A stretch of DNA of 38,480 bases from the NCBI GenBank assembly GCA_018399535.1, contig JAGYOR010000003.1, positions 1-38,480 on the forward strand, given 5' to 3'. Below, one piece after another: positions 3,798-14,490 of the stretch (within the stretch, counting starts at the first letter, position 1; every line of letters starts with the position of its first letter). Source of the stretch: Deltaproteobacteria bacterium (GTDB taxonomy: Bacteria; Desulfobacterota; Syntrophia; Syntrophales; UBA2210). Under the pieces are notes generated by a model. The model saw nothing but the letters and a program-made list of their open reading frames with translations, did no database searches and had not been told where the DNA came from. Made by a program: the position numbers and the translations under genes.

Positions 3798-4856
3798 ATG
3801 AACTCAAATCAGGATATCGTGGAACATCCCGCCCGGACGCTGCTTGATCTCGCGTCGGGCAAACGTTCGATTCTCATCGTGTGTCACAACAATCCCGATC
3901 CCGATGCCATGGCCGCGGCCCAGGCCCTGAAGGTTATTTTTTTTGCACAGAAACCCAAGCGGAAAGTCGTCATCGTGTACGGCGGCATCGTGGGCAGGGC
4001 CGAGAACCGGCAGATGCTGCGCCGCCTGAAAATCGAGATGACAAGCATAAAAGACATTTCCTTCAGGGATTTTTCACTGGTCTGCCTGATCGACAGTCAG
4101 CCGCGTACAGGCAACAATGATATTCCTCGAGCCGTTTATCCCCAGGTAGTCATTGATCATCATCCGCTCACTGCGGCGACGAAGAAATGCGACTTTTACG
4201 ATGTACGGCCCGGTTACGGCAGTTCCTCGACCATCCTGACGGAATACCTGCGGGAACTTGAAATTCCCGTGGACAGAAGGCTGGCGACGGCTCTTTTCTA
4301 CGGAATGAAAACAGACACCGGCGGTTTTTCCCGTTCCGTTACAAAAGCCGACCTCGAGACATTCAACTTTCTTGCTCCCCGCGTGGCGCCCCGCACGCTG
4401 GCGGCGATTGAAAATCCTCCCGTTCCCAAGAGTTATTATCTCAAGTATGTCGAAGCGATCGAAAGCTGCGTGGTGTACCAGAACGTTATCGTGACGGACC
4501 TGGGCAAGATCGGCAACCCCGATATTCCCGCCGAGATGGCCGACTTTCTCCTTCGCATGGAGGCTATCCGGTGGGTGCTGGCCATGGGCGAGTACCGGGA
4601 CGAGCTGATCCTGTCTGTCCGCACGTCCCGGCGGGGCTGGTGGGCCGGCAAGATCGCCCTGCGTATATTGCGCGGGCTGGGGACGGGCGGCGGTCACGAG
4701 CGGGCCGCGGGGGGCAAGGTGGCGCTCGCCGGTATGTCGCCGGAAGAACGGAAAGTAGTCCGGGAGCGAGTGGCGGAACGTCTGTTGAAAGTAGTCGGCG
4801 TGGGAGACGTGACCGGAAAACCGCTCTTCGCGTCCCGTAATCAGGAGCAGTCCTAA
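3798..4856 (+). CDS. DHH/DHHA1 family phosphoesterase (NrnA/RecJ-like)
   Basis: HNNPDPDAMAAA, VIDHHPLT, LFYGMKTDTGGFSRS and C-terminal GTGGGHERAAGG (DHHA1) motifs. Confidence 0.9.
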   Translation: MNSNQDIVEHPARTLLDLASGKRSILIVCHNNPDPDAMAAAQALKVIFFAQKPKRKVVIVYGGIVGRAENRQMLRRLKIEMTSIKDISFRDFSLVCLIDSQPRTGNNDIPRAVYPQVVIDHHPLTAATKKCDFYDVRPGYGSSSTILTEYLRELEIPVDRRLATALFYGMKTDTGGFSRSVTKADLETFNFLAPRVAPRTLAAIENPPVPKSYYLKYVEAIESCVVYQNVIVTDLGKIGNPDIPAEMADFLLRMEAIRWVLAMGEYRDELILSVRTSRRGWWAGKIALRILRGLGTGGGHERAAGGKVALAGMSPEERKVVRERVAERLLKVVGVGDVTGKPLFASRNQEQS

Positions 4857-4881: not shown

Positions 4882-6138
4882 ATGAAAATATTGATGTTCG
4901 GATGGGAATTTCCTCCATCCGTAAGCGGCGGCCTGGGAACGGCATGCCGCGGGCTGGCGGAAGGGCTTCTGGCGAACGGAGCGGAGGTCGTTTTCGTGGC
5001 GCCCGGCGCGGAGGGAGTCACGTCCCTGCCGAACCTCAGGTTCATCGACGGATTGTCGGCACCTCTCGCCGAAGATTCCGAGGCAACACCCGCAATACTG
5101 GAACGTCCCGCAGGTGTGTTGCTTGCTCCCTACATGACGGCGGGCGATTACCGGGAACAGCTGTCGGAACGTGACGGGGACCGGTACGGCGGCGACATGT
5201 ACGACGAAGTGGCCCGGTACGCCCGGTGCGCCCGGGCCGTTGCCCGGGCAGAATGTTTCGACGTCATCGCCGTCCACGACTGGATGACGATCCCCGCCGG
5301 CATGGCTGCCCGCGAGGAAACGGAACGACCCTTGATCGTGCACATACACTCCCTCGAGTCGGACAGGAGCCCATTGCGGATCAACGAATACATTTACGGG
5401 GTGGAACGTTTCGGCATGCTCGAGGCGGATCAGGTTATCGCCGTCAGTAACTACACGAAACAGAAAATAATCGATCAGTACGGCATACCGGGCGGGCGCA
5501 TCACGGTCGTTCACAACGCGGCGCTCCCCCTGCCGCCCGCGCCGCGGAAGAATGTGAAAGAGCCTGCACGGGGGAAAACTGTTCTTTTCCTCGGCAGAAT
5601 AACCTTTCAGAAGGGGCCCGGGTATTTCTTCGAGGCGGCACTCCTTGTTGCGGCGGAAGATCCGTCGGTGCGTTTCCTGATTGTCGGAACGGGCGACATG
5701 ATCGGCATGATGAAGCAACGTGCGGCGGCGGAAGGCATCGCCGACCGGTGTATGTTCACGGGATTTCTGGAAGGAGGGGACGTGACGGAATCTTTTGCCC
5801 GGAGCGATCTTTACGTCATGCCAAGCGATTCGGAGCCCTTCGGAATCACCGCGCTCGAAGCCATCAGCCAGGGCGTTCCCGTTATCCTTTCGGTGCATTC
5901 GGGGGTTGCTGAAGTGCTGCAAAGCTGTCCCGTCGTTGATCCGGAGGATACGGAAGTCCTGGCGCGGGAAATACTGGACATTCTGGGCGACGACGATCGG
6001 CGCCGGAAGATCGTTCGGGACGGCCTCGAGGATATGAAGGAGTTGACCTGGCGCCGTCAGGCGGCGGCGGTGCACGCGTGCTACCGCTCCGCGGCGGACC
6101 GGGCGGGCGAAACGTCCCTTCCCCGGGACGGCGGGTAA
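4882..6138 (+). CDS. Glycosyltransferase family 4 (GT-B), starch-synthase-like N-terminus
   Basis: MKILMFGWEFPPSVSGGLGTACRGL; LFLGRITFQKGPGYF; MPSDSEPFGITALEAISQGVPVI (E-X7-E). Confidence 0.9.
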   Translation: MKILMFGWEFPPSVSGGLGTACRGLAEGLLANGAEVVFVAPGAEGVTSLPNLRFIDGLSAPLAEDSEATPAILERPAGVLLAPYMTAGDYREQLSERDGDRYGGDMYDEVARYARCARAVARAECFDVIAVHDWMTIPAGMAAREETERPLIVHIHSLESDRSPLRINEYIYGVERFGMLEADQVIAVSNYTKQKIIDQYGIPGGRITVVHNAALPLPPAPRKNVKEPARGKTVLFLGRITFQKGPGYFFEAALLVAAEDPSVRFLIVGTGDMIGMMKQRAAAEGIADRCMFTGFLEGGDVTESFARSDLYVMPSDSEPFGITALEAISQGVPVILSVHSGVAEVLQSCPVVDPEDTEVLAREILDILGDDDRRRKIVRDGLEDMKELTWRRQAAAVHACYRSAADRAGETSLPRDGG

Positions 6139-6183
6139 AGCGGGAAACGGCACGAAGGAAGAGAACGAGGTGTGCGAAGTACG

Positions 6184-9100
6184 ATGAACAAAACGATTGG
6201 TATATCGGCTGATTGCCTTTTTGAATTGAGCTGGGAAACCTGCAACAAGGTGGGCGGCATTCACAGGGTTCTCAGGGGGAAGGCCGCCCGTGCCGTCGAG
6301 CGGTTTGGAGACGGCTATTTTCTTATCGGTCCCGACCTGGGGAATAATCCGGATTTCGAAGAGACCGACGAAGAACTCTGGGACGACATCAGGTTCGACG
6401 CGGGCGCGAGAAACCTGTCCTGCCGGTGTGGTCGCTGGCGGGACGCTCCCGGTGGGCCCCGGACCATCCTGGTGAGCCACAACGGGAAGTACGACGCGGA
6501 CAGGTTGCTCTTCGGGCTCTGGCAGAACTACGGCGTCGATTCCATGGCGGGAGGTCCGGACTACATTGAACAGGTATTGTTCGCCACGGCGGCGGCCGAA
6601 ATCGTTGAAATTGTTTACGAACGGCTGCTGCGGCATCACGAGGTGTTCGTAGCCCATTTTCACGACTGGACAACAGCGGCGGGACTTCTCTATCTTAACC
6701 GGAATATTCCCGAAATCGCGACGGTTTTCACAGCTCACGCCACGGTGCTGGGCAGGGCGATCGCCGATGCGGGCGACGACCTGCCGGATGATCAGGGCGC
6801 CGCTTTTACCGCCGAGCTGGCGTCACGGCTGAACGTCAGCGCGCGGCATTCCATCGAGACGGCCGCCACGGCGCAGGCCGACTGCCTCTCCGCCGTGAGC
6901 GAGGTGACGGCGGAGGAAGTGACCCGCATCCTGGGACGCACTCCCCGTGTGATTCTTCCCAACGGCATTACCATTAATGATGTGCCTGAATGTTTCGACG
7001 AAGCGACCGGCGCCGACCCACGCCGCCTGGCGATGCTTGATTTCGCGTCGAAGTTCCTGCGTACGGAACTGCCTGCCGACAGGACCGATATTTTTTTTAC
7101 ATCGGGACAGTACGATTTCCGGGGCAAGGGGATCGACCTGTTTCTGGAATCGCTGAAGGGCGTGGGCGACGACCTGCGCAATGATCCGGCCGGCAGGAAG
7201 GTGGTCGCCTTCCTGGGCGTCCTCGGCGCTCACCGAGGGATTTCACATGAAACGTCGCGCATCCTTCGGGGAGAAGAGGGGGTCGTCTCCTCCGGCGTTG
7301 CCCGCATCTGTACTCACCAGCTTTCCGATCCCCAGCATGATCCCGTCTGGAAGGCGTGCAACGTCCTCAATCTTCTGAACGATGCCGGCGACGCGGTTCA
7401 CGTGATTTGCATGCCCGTCTATCTTGACGGGTACGACGGTATTGTGAATCTCACGTATGACGACGTACTCGCCGCCTGCGACCTGGGAGTGTTTCTCTCC
7501 CGGTACGAACCCTGGGGATATACGCCGCTGGACGGCGCGGCACGCTGTCTTCCGGTGGTGACCACGGATCGCGCCGGTTTCGGAGCCTGGGTGCGACGGC
7601 AGGAGGACATACCCGCCGGCGGTGTTTTCGTCCTTGATTTTCAGGGCAGGAGTCGGGAAAGCTGCGTCGCGGCGCTTAAGGAATGCTTTCTCCGCGTCCT
7701 GGACTGGACGCCCGAAGAGAAACGGCGTCAGCGGAGCAGGGCCCGGTTTGTCGCGGCACGGGCCGACTGGGCTGTTCTGTATGATCGTTACGGAGAAGCG
7801 TACAACGAGGCCGTCGCGACGGCGGATAAACGTCTGCACGGTCTCGATACCAGCGGCACGGGCCGCGAGGTCACTTACGCGGGCACCGATTCCCTGCAGC
7901 CGCGGTACCGGAATTTCAGCGTCGCCGTCCCCTTGCCTGAGCCGCTTGGTCGTCTCAGGGAGATCGCTTACGATCTTACCTGGACCTGGACCCCCGAAAT
8001 AGAAGAACTCTTCGCCCGGCTGGATCCCCGCCTGTGGGTCGATCTCGGCCGCAATCCCGTGGAACTGCTGGAGCGGGTCAGGGAAGACCGGCTGGTGGAA
8101 ATGGCGGAAAACGAGACCTACCTCCGGCTTTACCGGCGGGTGTTGACCCTGCTTGACGACATCGGCGCCGACAACGGATCATTTGGAGACGATGATGCAC
8201 TTATCACGGCGAAAACCCCCGTGGCCTATTTCTCGACGGAATACGGCATGCACGAGAGCCTGCCCATATATTCGGGCGGTCTCGGCGTTCTTTCGGGGGA
8301 CCACTTGAAGTCCTCGGCCAACCTTCATTTTCCTCTCGTCGGCGTGGGACTGCTGTACAAGAACGGCTATTTTTCACAGATGCTTGACGGCGAGGGCAAC
8401 CAGGCCGCACTCTACCCGGATAATGATTTTTCACGTATGCCTGTGAGCATCTGCGCCAACGGGAGCAAGCCCGATGAGGCGCTCAAGATTCATGTCGACC
8501 TGCCCGGGCGGAAACTATACGCCCAGGCCTGGCATGTTACCGTGGGAACGGTGACACTGTACCTGCTCGACACGGCCATTCCTGAAAACAACAGCCAGGA
8601 CATGGCCATTACGTCGCGTCTCTACGGCGCCGACCAGCGGCTTCGCATCGAGCAGGAAATCATGCTGGGCATCGGCGGCGTGCGGTTGCTGGAAAAGCTG
8701 GGAATACGGCCGGCCGTCTTTCATCTTAACGAGGGACACTCGGCCTTTCTGTTGCTCGAGCGCATCAGGGGCCTCATGGAAAAAAAGGGGCTGACCTTTC
8801 ACGAGGCACGGGAGGTTGTGCGGGCGAGTTCCATATTTACTACCCACAGTCCCGTCGAAGCGGCCAATGAACGGTTCGAAGAATCGCTCATGAAAAATTA
8901 TTTTTCCGAATACGCCGAGGAGCTGGGAATTTCCTGGGACACCTTCTGGCAGCTCGGCCGGGACGAACCGGGTCCAGGCAAACCCTTTTTCATGCCCGTA
9001 CTTGCTTTCAATCTGTGCTGCGCCTCCAACGCCGTGAGCGAACTTCACGGCCAGGTCGCGCGGAAGATGTGGAAAAAGGTGTGGTCGGGATTCGACGAGG

Positions 9101-10467
9101 ATGAAGTGCCCGTGAAGGCCGTCACCAACGGTGTGCACATGCAGTCGTGGGTGGCGCCCGCGATGAAGGAATGTTACGAGCGCTACCTGGGGATCGACTG
9201 GTATTCAGGGGATTTTGAAAACCTGGGCTGGGAACGGGTGGACGAGATTCCCGACAAGGTGCTCTGGCAGACTCACGCGGATCTCAAGACAAAAATGATC
9301 GATTACGTGAAAAGCAGCCTGACGGCGCAAAGCGAGCGGCAGGGAATTCCCCGGTCTCTGGTCCGGCGGAAAACAGAAAGTCTCGACCCCGGCGCCCTGA
9401 TCATCGGTTTTGCCAGGAGATTCGCCACCTACAAGCGGGCGCTCATGCTGTTCGAGGATTGCGACCGCCTGTCTCGACTGCTGAACGACAACGGCAGAAC
9501 CGTGCAGGTTGTTTTCGCGGGCAAGGCCCACCCGAATGACGAGGCCGGTAAGGAGCTTCTGAAACAGTTGTTCGCCTATACCTGGGACGAGCGGTTCATC
9601 GACAATATTTTTTTCATCGAGAATTATAATCTGGGAACGGCGCGAAGCCTGGTTCAAGGCGTCGATGTCTGGCTCAACAATCCCCTGCGGCCGCGCGAAG
9701 CAAGCGGAACGAGCGGCATGAAAGTTGTGGTAAACGGCGGGTTGAACCTGAGCATTCTCGACGGCTGGTGGGACGAAGCCTACAACGGCGACAACGGCTG
9801 GGCCTTCGGCGACGGCAGGGAGTGCAATAACGTGGACACGCAGAACACCGCCGACAGTGATTCTCTCTACGACGTGCTCGAATCGTCGGTGCTGCCGTGT
9901 TTTTTTGATACGAACGGCGGCGGTTACCCGGAAAAATGGCTTGCCATAATGAAATCGTCCATCAAAAGCCTTGTCCCCCGTTTCAACACTCATCGCATGG
10001 TCAAGCAGTATTATGAAACCATGTACCTGCCCGCGGCCCGTCGCGCGGCGGTCCTGAAGGCGCGGGGATACGAACGGGCGCGGGCCCTGGCCGGCTGGAA
10101 ACAGAAAATATCCTCGCGGTTTTCACGGGACCACATCCGGTGGTACAAGGTGCGGGGTTTCACGGGTGACCGCCTTGACGTGGGCGGATCATTCCAGGTG
10201 GAGGCGGGAATCGACCTGGGCCGGCTCTCGGAAGAGGAAGTGCGGGTGGAACTGGTCATCATGGAATCCGGGGAGAGAGGCGTGCTGCGCAAATCGGCCG
10301 TCCTGGGGATGAACAAGACAGGCGTCGACGCCGACGACGGGACACTCATATATTCAGGCGAGTACCGGGCCGAAAAATCAGGCACCTTTGTTTACGGTAT
10401 CCGTATCATGCCGACGCATCCCGACCTTTTCTCCTATCAGGAACCGGGACTGGTCCACTGGGCCTAG
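6184..10467 (+). CDS. Fusion enzyme: GT3 glycogen synthase-like domain + DUF3417 + GT35 alpha-glucan phosphorylase
   Basis: N-term [23 protein letters not shown] and [10 protein letters not shown] are GT3 (eukaryotic-type glycogen synthase) signatures; [30 protein letters not shown] is DUF3417-like; [30 protein letters not shown] and EASGTSGMK (PLP-lysine region) are alpha-glucan phosphorylase signatures. Confidence 0.9.
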   Translation: [1427 protein letters not shown]

Positions 10468-10515
10468 CCCCATACCGCGCGCCTATCGGCGGCGGGTTTG
10501 AAGGAGGATGTTCAC

Positions 10516-13212
10516 ATGTCGCTAGTCTGTTTGTACTTTCAGCTGCACCAGCCCTTTCGCCTGCATCCCGAGCGGGACAAGTTCCTCTGGGAAGACCTGA
10601 ATCGCGAGGTATTTCAAAAGGTCGCATCGAAATGCTATCTGCCCGCGCTGTCGCTTTTTGAGGAAATGGTGGCCGGCGAGGAATCGTTCAAGGCGACTTT
10701 CAGCTTTTCGGGGGCCTTCCTTGAGCAGGCGCAACTCTACAGTCCCGACGTGATCACGGCCCTGCAGCGTCTGCTCGATGCGGGCGGTGGCGAACGGGTC
10801 GAGTATCTGGACGAGACCTACTACCATTCACTCACGTCGCTTTTCGAAGATCCGAAACGACAGGAATTCCGCGATCAAGTGTCGTTCCACCGCGACCTGA
10901 TGCGGCACCTCTTCGGTATCAAGCCCACGTCCTTTCGCAACACTGAACTGATGTACAACAATAATATCGCCGCGGCCGTTCACGACATGGGCTACCGGGC
11001 GATTCTGTGCGAGCAGCGCCGGGACATGTACGGCGACGGAGCGGTTCTGACACCCGATTCCGTGTTCAAGTCCGTTGAAAACGGTCTCGTCGTCATTCCC
11101 CGCAACAGGGATCTGAGCGACGACGTTGCCTTCCGTTTCACCCACCGGCCGCTTGCGCCGGAGGAATATGCCGCCAATATCGCGCGTATTGACGGACCGG
11201 CGGTGCTGCTTGGCTACGATTTCGAGCATATCGGGGAACATCTCTGGGAAGACACCGGCATTTTCGAATTCTGGAAGGCGATTCCCCGGGCTTTCGCAAA
11301 CCATGAGTCAATCGTCATGGCCAATCCCACGGAGATAGCCGAGCGGTTCGAAAACGTGGAATGCCCCCCCGTGGACATTCCGGGCCTTGCGACATCGTCC
11401 TGGGCCGACGCATCGCGGGATACCCACGGGTGGCTGGGCACCATGACCCAGTATGAATTGTTCCGGAACATCGAAAAACTGGAAGGAGAAGCCCGGCGCG
11501 CCGGCGGCGAGCTGCTGACCCGCTGGCGGCACCTGACCACGTCGGATCATATCTATTTCCTTCATGAACGGATCGGCGAGGATCACGCCGTGCATTCCTA
11601 TTTCAACCCGTACGGTGGTTCCATCACCCAGGCGGCCCACGTGCTCACCCGCAAGATCGACGATTTCGAAGTCGCCATCAGGCGTTTCGAGGTGTTGAAG
11701 CGGCGGGAACGCACGGCAGTGCTGCTCATTGCACCCGAAAGCGGACGTCTGCCAGAGGATATGGGGGCGCTGGCATCCTATATATCGGGGAAAAGCGGCG
11801 GCCTCGGCGAAGTGGTCTCCGCCCTCTGCGAGGGGCTGAACGAACGGAACGTGGACGTACACCTGGCCATGCTGAATCTCAAGAAGCGGTTCCGCGAGGA
11901 CAGCCGCATCGGCGAGGAAGACTGGCGCACCTTGCGGTATCAGCACGACACGGACAGGATTCACCTGGTCAGTTCCTCCGTTTTCGCCGACCTGCCCGGC
12001 GCCTATGCCGGCGATCCCGCCCGGAACGCGGCCGAGTTCCAGAAAGAAGTAATAAATCACATCATCAAGGATGTGCGGGGAAAGAGCCGGGGGAGGCTGA
12101 TCGTCCATACCCACGACTGGATGGCCGGGGGAGCCGCCTCGGCGTACGTGAAATCCCGGGGCATTCCGCTCCTTCACACGATGCACAACAGTTTTACCGG
12201 GTACATTCCCCTGGAGATGCTGTTCGGCATCGAGATAGACGAACTGGTTCCCTTCCTGTACCTGTCGGACGATAAAGGCCGACGCTGCATCGACGCCCAG
12301 GCGACGGCGATCAAAAACGCCACGATGGTGAATTTTGTCGGCCGCCGGTTCCTCGAAGAAGTGGTAAACGATTATTTCATTGATCAGCCCGTCATTCCTC
12401 AGAGCGTCCGTGATGAAGTAAAGGCGAAATACGCCGTGGGCGCCGTTGTATCGATCATCAACGCCCCGTCCCGCACGATGTACCCCGAGTTCTGCCCTCA
12501 CCTCGTCAGGAACTACGGCCCCGACGCGGACATCCTGGCGGCGAAACGGGAAAATCTCCTGGAATTCCAGCGCCGGACCGGTCTCAACGTGAATCCCGGA
12601 GCGGTTCTGTTCTACTGGCCGTCCAGGCTCGACCCGTTGCAGAAAGGTGTGACGGTCTTTGAAGAAGTGCTGCTTCGTTTCGTCATTGAAAACCCGGACG
12701 TGCAGGTGGCGATCGTGGCCAACGGCGTCGGCGGCGACCGCGCGCACGAGGAAATCCTTGGAAGAATAGCCTGGGTGTCGGGAGGAAAAATCGCCTACCA
12801 TCACTACCAGGAGGATCTGTCCATGCTCGGTTTCGCCGCCGCGAGCGATGTTTTCGGGGTATCCCTTTACGAGCCCTGCGGGCAGATCGACCAGGTAGGC
12901 AACCTGTTCGGCGCCACGGCAACGAACCGTGACACCGGGGGCTACCACGACAAGATCAGGGAACTGCGGCTGAAGGCGGACGGTTCTCCCCAGGATGTGG
13001 GAAACGGGTTTCTTTTCAGGGATTACGATCCCGGCGGGCTGCTCTTCGGCATGGAAAAAAGCCTCCGCTTCCATCGAAGGCCCGCCGTCGAGCGTGAACC
13101 GCAGATCAGGCGCATCATGCGGGAGACCAGGGAGAAATATGACCTGGAGACCATGATCGCTCAGTACATGAGAGTTTACGAACGGCTCAACGGCGACCGG
13201 CCGCTGGTTTGA
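10516..13212 (+). CDS. Fusion enzyme: GH57 alpha-amylase domain + GT5 glycogen/starch synthase domain
   Basis: GH57 motifs HQPFRL, SFRNTELMYNN, LGYDFEHIGEHLWE; GT5 motifs YISGKSGGLGEVVSALCEGL, HTHDWMAGGAA, YWPSRLDPLQKGV, SLYEPCGQIDQ. Start 10516 has aaggagg SD. Confidence 0.88.
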   Translation: MSLVCLYFQLHQPFRLHPERDKFLWEDLNREVFQKVASKCYLPALSLFEEMVAGEESFKATFSFSGAFLEQAQLYSPDVITALQRLLDAGGGERVEYLDETYYHSLTSLFEDPKRQEFRDQVSFHRDLMRHLFGIKPTSFRNTELMYNNNIAAAVHDMGYRAILCEQRRDMYGDGAVLTPDSVFKSVENGLVVIPRNRDLSDDVAFRFTHRPLAPEEYAANIARIDGPAVLLGYDFEHIGEHLWEDTGIFEFWKAIPRAFANHESIVMANPTEIAERFENVECPPVDIPGLATSSWADASRDTHGWLGTMTQYELFRNIEKLEGEARRAGGELLTRWRHLTTSDHIYFLHERIGEDHAVHSYFNPYGGSITQAAHVLTRKIDDFEVAIRRFEVLKRRERTAVLLIAPESGRLPEDMGALASYISGKSGGLGEVVSALCEGLNERNVDVHLAMLNLKKRFREDSRIGEEDWRTLRYQHDTDRIHLVSSSVFADLPGAYAGDPARNAAEFQKEVINHIIKDVRGKSRGRLIVHTHDWMAGGAASAYVKSRGIPLLHTMHNSFTGYIPLEMLFGIEIDELVPFLYLSDDKGRRCIDAQATAIKNATMVNFVGRRFLEEVVNDYFIDQPVIPQSVRDEVKAKYAVGAVVSIINAPSRTMYPEFCPHLVRNYGPDADILAAKRENLLEFQRRTGLNVNPGAVLFYWPSRLDPLQKGVTVFEEVLLRFVIENPDVQVAIVANGVGGDRAHEEILGRIAWVSGGKIAYHHYQEDLSMLGFAAASDVFGVSLYEPCGQIDQVGNLFGATATNRDTGGYHDKIRELRLKADGSPQDVGNGFLFRDYDPGGLLFGMEKSLRFHRRPAVEREPQIRRIMRETREKYDLETMIAQYMRVYERLNGDRPLV

Positions 13213-14458
13213 GGGGCGCTTTGACGCCTTCCTCCCAGATTTCAACCAGGTAATCCTTCTGGCGTTCGAATTTCACCGCCTGGTCTTCGACCAGGGCTTC
13301 CGCCTCGGCGGAACTCATGTCCCAGGTGCGCCGGACGAAGGTGGCGACGCGGGCGTAGTAGAGCGGGGTCATCACATCGACGAGTTTGTTGCGATTCACT
13401 TTCCATTTATGAAAGGTTGCCGCCAGTTCGTAGAGGATCTTTACCCAGTCCTCTGTTGACAGGCTGAAATCCTCAACGCTCATGGAGGCGGCGCGGGTGA
13501 CTGCCTCGCAGCTTTCCGGGCTGAGCACCTCTCTCCACAGGGCTGAAAACTGGCTGTGTCCTGTCTTGAAATGTTCGATCATTCCCTCGAGATTCACGGG
13601 AACCGGTTCCGGTTCCAGGACCCCCTCGAAGCCGAAGGTTTCCACCGGCTCGCTGCCGTGTACCTTTTTCCAGACCGTCTCGTTTGTTTCCATGAGCGAG
13701 AAGACCGTCCACAGCACCTGCCGGAACATGGGGCCCAGGTGCAGCCCCGGATCTTTTGCGTCGTGAATCTTGACACCCAGGTTCGACTGGCAGACGCGGT
13801 AGTTGCTGGTGATGGCGTGCGTGGTCATCCAGATGTCGATGCCGTAACGCGCCACGTCCGTTTCCCACACATCCTGGTTGATAAAGTACCGCGTGACCTC
13901 CCGGGAAAGGGCGAAATCGCCCCCGATGGGTTGCCGGATCCGTTTTCCGTAGAGGGCCCTCGTCAGGTTGTACACGATGTTGTTGGTGATCGTGCCGTCG
14001 TATTTGTGCCTGACGTAGACCGGCGCCACGAACTGATAGCCCTTTTCGAGCACCGGGTCGAGCAGGTAGCGGACCCAGTCGGGAGTGATGCTCCTGAGAT
14101 CGGAATCGACCACGACGCAGGCATCTGTCTGCAGGCGGCAGGCGGCCTCGAAGATCGAACGGAGAGCCGATCCCTTGCCCGCGGGCCCCCTGTAGATTGA
14201 CACCACTTTTTCCTGCCAGGGCTTGATCTGGAATTCCTTGGCGACTTCCCTCGTGTCGTCCGTCGATCCGCCGTCGGCGATTATGATGACACTCCGCCTG
14301 TCCTTGTAATACTGGGCGAGACCATGAGTGAGCATCTGGATCACGTGCCCGATCGTCTTCTCGTTGTTGTAGCAGGGTATTCCCACGAGAATGTCGGCGT
14401 GTTCTATTTCCTCAAGCCGTTTCGCGCTGTAGGACCTGAGGGCCGTGTTGTAGTGCAT
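13187..14458 (-). CDS. GT2/GT81-like glycosyltransferase (glucosyl-3-phosphoglycerate / mannosylglycerate synthase-like)
   Basis: ILVGIPCYNNEKTIGHVI, IIIADGGSTDDTREVA, RGPAGKGSALRSIFEAA, CVVVDSDLRSI, IRQPIGGDFALSREV. Start at MHYN has aaagga SD. 3' end overlaps the GH57-GT5 gene by 26 bp, convergently. Confidence 0.8.
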   Translation of the reverse strand: MHYNTALRSYSAKRLEEIEHADILVGIPCYNNEKTIGHVIQMLTHGLAQYYKDRRSVIIIADGGSTDDTREVAKEFQIKPWQEKVVSIYRGPAGKGSALRSIFEAACRLQTDACVVVDSDLRSITPDWVRYLLDPVLEKGYQFVAPVYVRHKYDGTITNNIVYNLTRALYGKRIRQPIGGDFALSREVTRYFINQDVWETDVARYGIDIWMTTHAITSNYRVCQSNLGVKIHDAKDPGLHLGPMFRQVLWTVFSLMETNETVWKKVHGSEPVETFGFEGVLEPEPVPVNLEGMIEHFKTGHSQFSALWREVLSPESCEAVTRAASMSVEDFSLSTEDWVKILYELAATFHKWKVNRNKLVDVMTPLYYARVATFVRRTWDMSSAEAEALVEDQAVKFERQKDYLVEIWEEGVKAPLKPAAGRR

Positions 14459-14490
14459 GCGGCATCCTTTCATGCGAAATATTTAAAATA

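Follow-up and report, generated by a model that had tools for sequence, protein, structure and literature searches.

A GH57-GT5 fusion protein of Syntrophales as a candidate glycogen synthase with its own brancher

We describe a protein family of Syntrophales in which a GH57 domain is joined in frame to a GT5 glycogen synthase, and we favor, with a probability of roughly 60%, the reading that it is a synthase carrying its own putative brancher, the divergent GH57 domain, in a single chain. This reading draws on the fusion architecture, the conserved catalytic residues, the lack of any other candidate brancher, the presence of a debrancher, and a decay of the GH57 domain that is associated with branching enzymes (BEs).

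Architecture and distribution of the fusion

The stretch of DNA that we analyzed (the window; 38,480 nt) is contig C154 of host genome G000, which is 2.06 Mb in size and 96% complete. The fusion lies in an open frame of 904 codons on the plus strand, from TTG 10498 to the stop ending at 13212. The first-pass annotation had begun the gene at ATG 10516, and we likewise favor this codon over the TTG as the likely true start because it has a Shine-Dalgarno sequence upstream and most orthologues start there (Table 1). The proposed GH57-GT5 architecture was borne out by Pfam and NCBIfam matches in one frame, with all of the motifs originally quoted for it found. PF03065 (GH57) matches residues 12–289 of the 904-codon frame (E = 6.5e-55), and TIGR02095 (GlgA, GT5 glycogen synthase) matches residues 432–897 (E = 8.4e-34), the latter at 117 bits, below the curated cut-off of 328. 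Judged by its sequence, the GT5 half is a divergent GT5 branch; E. coli glycogen synthase can be aligned to it, and its active-site motifs (K-x-G-G, HDW, R..K, and E-P-C-G) are kept in essentially all full-length copies of the fusion. The GH57 half has the five conserved sequence regions (CSRs) of its family with the Glu nucleophile and Asp acid/base; E150 aligns with the catalytic Glu of the Thermococcus litoralis 4-alpha-glucanotransferase, and in 1k1w the catalytic pair lines up with E150 and D241.

Table 1. Positions of the fusion, its parts, and its neighbors in the window
Feature	Position	Strand	Details
GT4 gene, GH133-GT4-GH57 cluster type	4882..6138	+	Domain match
GT3-DUF3417-GT35 fusion	6172..10467	+	UDP-glucose-type synthase and alpha-glucan phosphorylase; TIGR02094, E = 5e-242
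Shine-Dalgarno sequence AAGGAGG	10501..10507	+	8 nt 5' of ATG 10516
GH57-GT5 fusion gene	10516..13212	+	898 aa from ATG 10516
GH57 (beta/alpha)7 domain and helical part	10516..11682	+	Residues 7-395; Pfam, AF2, Foldseek
GH57 nucleophile E150 (FRNTEL, CSR-3)	10945..10947	+	Alignment and CSR numbering of PMC6037648
GH57 acid/base D241 (GYDFEHIGEH, CSR-4)	11218..11220	+	Alignment and CSR numbering of PMC6037648
GT5 synthase domain	11710..13209	+	Residues 405-904; KSGG, HDW, SRLDPLQKG, EPCGQ
Convergent GT2 gene	13187..14473	-	Glucosyl-3-phosphoglycerate-synthase-like, below cut-off

In an AF2 model of the full-length protein, the GH57 half was predicted with confidence (pLDDT mostly >85) and the GT5 half poorly, with few fusion sequences eligible for the alignment. 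A Foldseek search with the GH57 half, an incomplete (beta/alpha)7 barrel, returned many GH57 structures (best E = 1.6e-12); Foldseek separately matched E. coli glycogen synthase.

The fusion is real, conserved, and characteristic of the order. It occurs in 77 of 149 sampled Syntrophales genomes, 76 with motifs that could be scored plus one (G104) in which the gene ends before the motifs; most copies span the full length, with a few cut by contig ends. Dozens of independent genomes share this in-frame architecture, which is therefore neither a chance event nor an assembly artefact. In a sample of the whole phylum, full-length matches to the fusion fell only inside Syntrophales, and matches outside the order were to stand-alone GT5 proteins (about 32–40%) or stand-alone GH57 proteins (about 31–41%). 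One Phycisphaerae contig among the matches listed carries a fusion of 931 aa whose GH57 domain is decayed (FLNTAL for FRNTEL). Searches of the open-licence PMC literature turned up neither an account of a GH57-GT5 fusion nor a paper about glycogen synthase in Syntrophales.

GH57 motif decay in relation to branching enzymes

The fusion is the sole GH57 protein of its host genome, in which we detected no GH13 match of any kind, no BE, and no GlgC (TIGR02091). The absence of glgC and of a GH13 glgB, first remarked on for the window, thus extends to the whole of the 96% complete genome. TIGR02091 scored above its cut-off solely in genomes of family f10, none of which carries the fusion, so that by the presence of GlgC in the genome no fusion genome falls under the classical GlgC-GlgA-GlgB pathway; the four NTP_transferase matches of the host look like RmlA-, ManC-, GlmU-, and RfbF-type proteins, with no GlgC or GalU among them. 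A GH133 debranching enzyme is encoded on another contig of the host (C205), and GH133 is present in 45 of the 52 fusion genomes that lack a GH13 BE (33 of 35 at >=90% completeness). Seven genomes that are 96–100% complete (the host, G005, G007, G009, G014, G068, and G092) have the fusion as sole GH57 and zero GH13 matches. Retention of a debrancher suggests that these cells probably make branches, which makes the fused GH57 domain the obvious candidate for the brancher. The GH13 proteins of G001, from the host's genus, were considered as BEs and set aside, being sucrose-phosphorylase/TreS-like and debranching-glucanotransferase-like instead.

The GH13 protein of ~690 aa in BE-bearing fusion genomes is a BE of the eukaryotic type (human GBE1, E = 1.5e-207). 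Two representatives match human and plant BEs at 1e-190 or better, and the best NCBIfam family of a third is branching enzyme; G033 and G077 have GlgB-type enzymes above cut-off. The eukaryote-type BE lies near the fusion in several f16 genomes, and human GBE1-type BEs (GH13_8-like) are common in Syntrophales (for example, loci L103 and L086-L089). A genome from the window's own family (G008) has a GT5 protein orthologous to the C-terminal half of the fusion, without GH57, beside a GH13 BE; no GH57 was found in that genome. The same locus (L094, 5601-18701) encodes a bifunctional debrancher (GH13-GH133), a GT35, a GT5, the eukaryote-type BE, and, as second GT5, the orthologue of the fusion's C-terminal half.

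We scored the GH57 motif as intact when it read NTEL plus D[FYIL]EH[ILM]GEH, a definition set after inspection of the data, in 76 fusion genomes, some of them incomplete, of which 52 lack and 24 have a GH13 BE. Of the genomes without a BE, 50 of 52 have intact motifs, against 7 of 24 BE-bearing ones (Fisher 1e-9, with no correction for relatedness); the motifs are altered or lost in the other 17 BE-bearing genomes, and the GT5 motifs stay constant in the alignment. Several altered copies retain E150 and D241 and differ at neighboring residues, and loss of either catalytic residue itself was seen in 2/52 and 10/24 genomes, respectively (Fisher 9e-5). When BE presence was simulated on the GT5 tree (Mk model), the association with the motifs held (p = 0.0006). 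On the same tree, a leave-relatives-out measure of divergence gave p of about 0.01 for GH57 and p = 0.0036 for the GH57/GT5 ratio, with p = 0.48 for the GT5 control. The independent motif changes number only ~7, and an independent-pairs sign test had too few pairs to reach significance.

The altered lineages with a BE are g11 (E150D/N, D241N or other), G074, g29 (D241E), the Syntrophus-like f15, G033, G006, and G080 (E150D, D241Y). Counter-cases exist in both directions: a BE stands beside an intact motif in G043, G056, G064, G146, and G077, and by a relaxed motif also in G095 and G111; the motif is lost without a GH13 BE in G028, which lacks GH133 as well, and in G147, a 77% complete genome with no BE seen, whose sampled congeners do have a BE. 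As an out-of-sample prediction, the genome with the decayed Phycisphaerae copy was expected to encode a BE, and a GlgB was indeed found there (909 bits); many bacteria have GlgB, which makes this a weak test.

Because the motifs decay mostly where a BE is present, the catalysis of the GH57 domain appears to be redundant with that enzyme. The pattern lends evolutionary support to the first-pass suggestion of GH57 as a possible brancher, an activity that we infer, and does not fit the label of a "degradative-plus-synthetic" fusion, as genomes otherwise missing a BE keep GH57 catalysis and those that have one have often lost it. In the mechanism that we propose, the GT5 half would lengthen alpha-1,4 chains with an NDP-glucose as donor, which is probably not ADP-glucose given a genome without GlgC; the GH57 half would act as a retaining enzyme, with E150 as nucleophile and D241 as acid/base, cutting a chain and reattaching it via an alpha-1,6 bond; and the GT3-GT35 protein (a second synthase plus a phosphorylase), GT4, and the GH133 debrancher encoded on the other contig would complete the glycogen cycle. 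Branching (transferase) activity, the identity of the donor, and any coupling between the domains are the predicted elements of this scheme.

Fingerprints and competing activities of the GH57 domain

We classified the GH57 domain by the CSR fingerprints that distinguish GH57 specificities (PMC6037648). It shows the alpha-amylase features at positions 1 (Glu/Gln) and 12 (Arg/Glu), in QLHQP and RNTELM, and departs from that fingerprint at position 23, with His (GYDFEHIGEH) for Thr/Ser/Ala, and at positions 35-36, with Tyr-Phe (SDHIYF) for Tyr-Tyr. GH57 BEs have Trp or another aromatic residue at 12, Leu at 23, and Phe at 35 followed by a non-aromatic residue, where the window has Arg, His, and Tyr-Phe. 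These signatures put the domain on the alpha-amylase side, yet it matches neither alpha-amylases nor known GH57 BEs.

Position 12 counts against a brancher, the Arg being an alpha-amylase-side feature and not that of known GH57 BEs, as does the coexistence of stand-alone GH57 relatives with a GH13 BE in some Bacteroidota. The one characterized close type, from M. jannaschii, is reportedly an amylase. The same Arg would suit a plain endo-amylase, serving the fused synthase by chain trimming or by supplying maltooligosaccharide primers, a reading that we regard as unlikely but worth serious weight. The nearest stand-alone relatives have full alpha-amylase fingerprints (DYETFGEH, SDHFYY), and Sulfolobus extracts without AmyA hydrolyze less glycogen (PMC8158581). 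An endo-amylase, however, would leave unexplained both the loss of catalysis mainly in genomes with a GH13 BE and the origin of the branches in genomes that have only the fusion and GH133; His 23 and Phe 36 are off the amylase fingerprint, and among ~20 BE-lacking fusion genomes with other GH13 matches, GH57 is intact in all but G028.

Decayed copies remain in frame across whole genera (g11 and g29) instead of being deleted, so the domain may also do something other than catalysis; that it serves mainly as a glucan-binding or structural part of the synthase, without catalysis, is nonetheless very improbable, since 50 of the 52 genomes without a BE retain both catalytic residues. Least probable is a role in debranching or disproportionation, as a 4-alpha-glucanotransferase or amylopullulanase: the T. 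litoralis 4-alpha-glucanotransferase is the best Foldseek match, with amylopullulanases ranking close, and the sole confident match of a GH57 profile search of the PDB, but the Foldseek matches span all GH57 activities, among them glucanotransferase, BE, and amylopullulanase structures, at 12–18% identity, so the fold does not decide the activity, the domain lacks the Lys at 23 of glucanotransferases and the Trp-Trp at 35-36 of amylopullulanases, the redundancy is with a branching enzyme, and a GH133 debrancher already present in most fusion genomes makes debranching, the other role first suggested for GH57, unlikely.

Related systems and neighboring genes

The closest parallel to the proposed synthase with its own brancher is the pair amyA (saci_1200) and glgA (saci_1201) of Sulfolobus acidocaldarius, which form one transcript and of which the amyA mutant accumulates no glycogen; trimming or debranching was proposed for AmyA, which could not be expressed in that work (PMC8158581). 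As described there from the gene order and the mutant, the pair resembles the fusion in placing GH57 before GT5, in the need of GH57 for glycogen, and in belonging to an archaeal group without a classical BE; it differs in comprising two proteins instead of one and in that Sulfolobus has glgC, which fusion genomes lack. A 2024 review raised the idea that amylase-type GH57 proteins are perhaps the missing brancher of those archaea that make glycogen without GlgB (PMC11046441), and the BE-linked decay favors this idea over trimming or debranching. The fusion family thus adds independent bacterial evidence on that question and offers a bacterial protein open to assay, making it directly testable. 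We hold it evenly balanced whether alpha-amylase-side GH57 proteins tied to GT5 synthases form an unrecognised class of BE, occurring in Syntrophales as a single-chain synthase-brancher that uses a donor other than GlgC-made ADP-glucose and decays when a eukaryote- or GlgB-type GH13 BE is present.

Stand-alone alpha-amylase-type GH57 proteins of archaea, Bacteroidota, Desulfovibrio, and others, about 35–42% identical among the matches listed, have the same catalytic residues and sit in clusters with the same companions (GH133-GT4-GH57, often GT3/GT35); unlike the fusion, they are not joined to GT5, the aligned examples have Thr at CSR-4 position 23 and Tyr-Tyr at 35-36, and a GH13 BE is nearby in some of those genomes. 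The GH57 BEs of T. kodakarensis (TK1436), Thermus thermophilus, and P. horikoshii share the fold and the Glu/Asp pair, but differ at the three fingerprint positions (aromatic/Trp 12, Leu 23, Phe 35) and are unfused to a synthase. Fusion of a glycogen synthase to a branching-type GH domain is also known from the GlgA-GlgB protein of Waddliaceae/Criblamydiaceae, whose branching is non-functional and for which no other reported example is named (PMC7935935). That protein has a C-terminal GH13 domain and is ADP-glucose-specific, whereas the Syntrophales fusion, with synthase and putative branching domain in one frame in the window, has an N-terminal GH57 domain and is kept across many families of the order. 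Should it prove active, the Syntrophales protein would become the first synthase-brancher fusion on record whose branching works.

The GT4 and GT3-GT35 genes noted in the first-pass annotation are indeed upstream of the fusion on the same strand. The further idea of a compact three-gene machine with conserved gene order was upheld in part: the order GT4, GT3-GT35, GH57-GT5 is found in the window's family (f1) and in most contigs of f17, but in other Syntrophales families the fusion stands apart from GT4 and GT3-GT35, and in G003, from the window's genus, GT4 adjoins the fusion with no GT3-GT35 at that locus. The convergent GT2 gene is retained beside the fusion over the same range (f1 and most f17 contigs). 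In G007, G009, and G068, a GH133 debrancher gene lies just 5' of GT4, and in G006 one lies 5' of GT3-GT35. The GT3-GT35 fusion is widespread (Bacteroidales, Alistipes, and a deltaproteobacterium) and is therefore not the special part of this locus; its opposing activities, synthase and phosphorylase, in one chain look poorly described. A PADLOC search returned zero matches for the GT4, GT3-GT35, and GH57-GT5 genes, and a defence function for the three was dropped.

Several smaller observations concern the surrounding genes. The GT2 gene has a long C-terminal extension and overlaps the 3' end of the fusion by 26 nt. A DHH/DHHA1 phosphoesterase gene (3798-4856, plus strand) lies directly 5' of GT4 and is adjacent or near also in G001, G003, and G009. 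GT3-GT35 is a single gene of 1,412–1,428 aa next to or near GH133-GT4-GH57 in the listed complete loci (L203, L206, L208, and L239), and a second cluster in G050 (L096, C1:862000-875000) combines GT4, a stand-alone GH57, and GT3-GT35 with a GT5 on the opposite strand.
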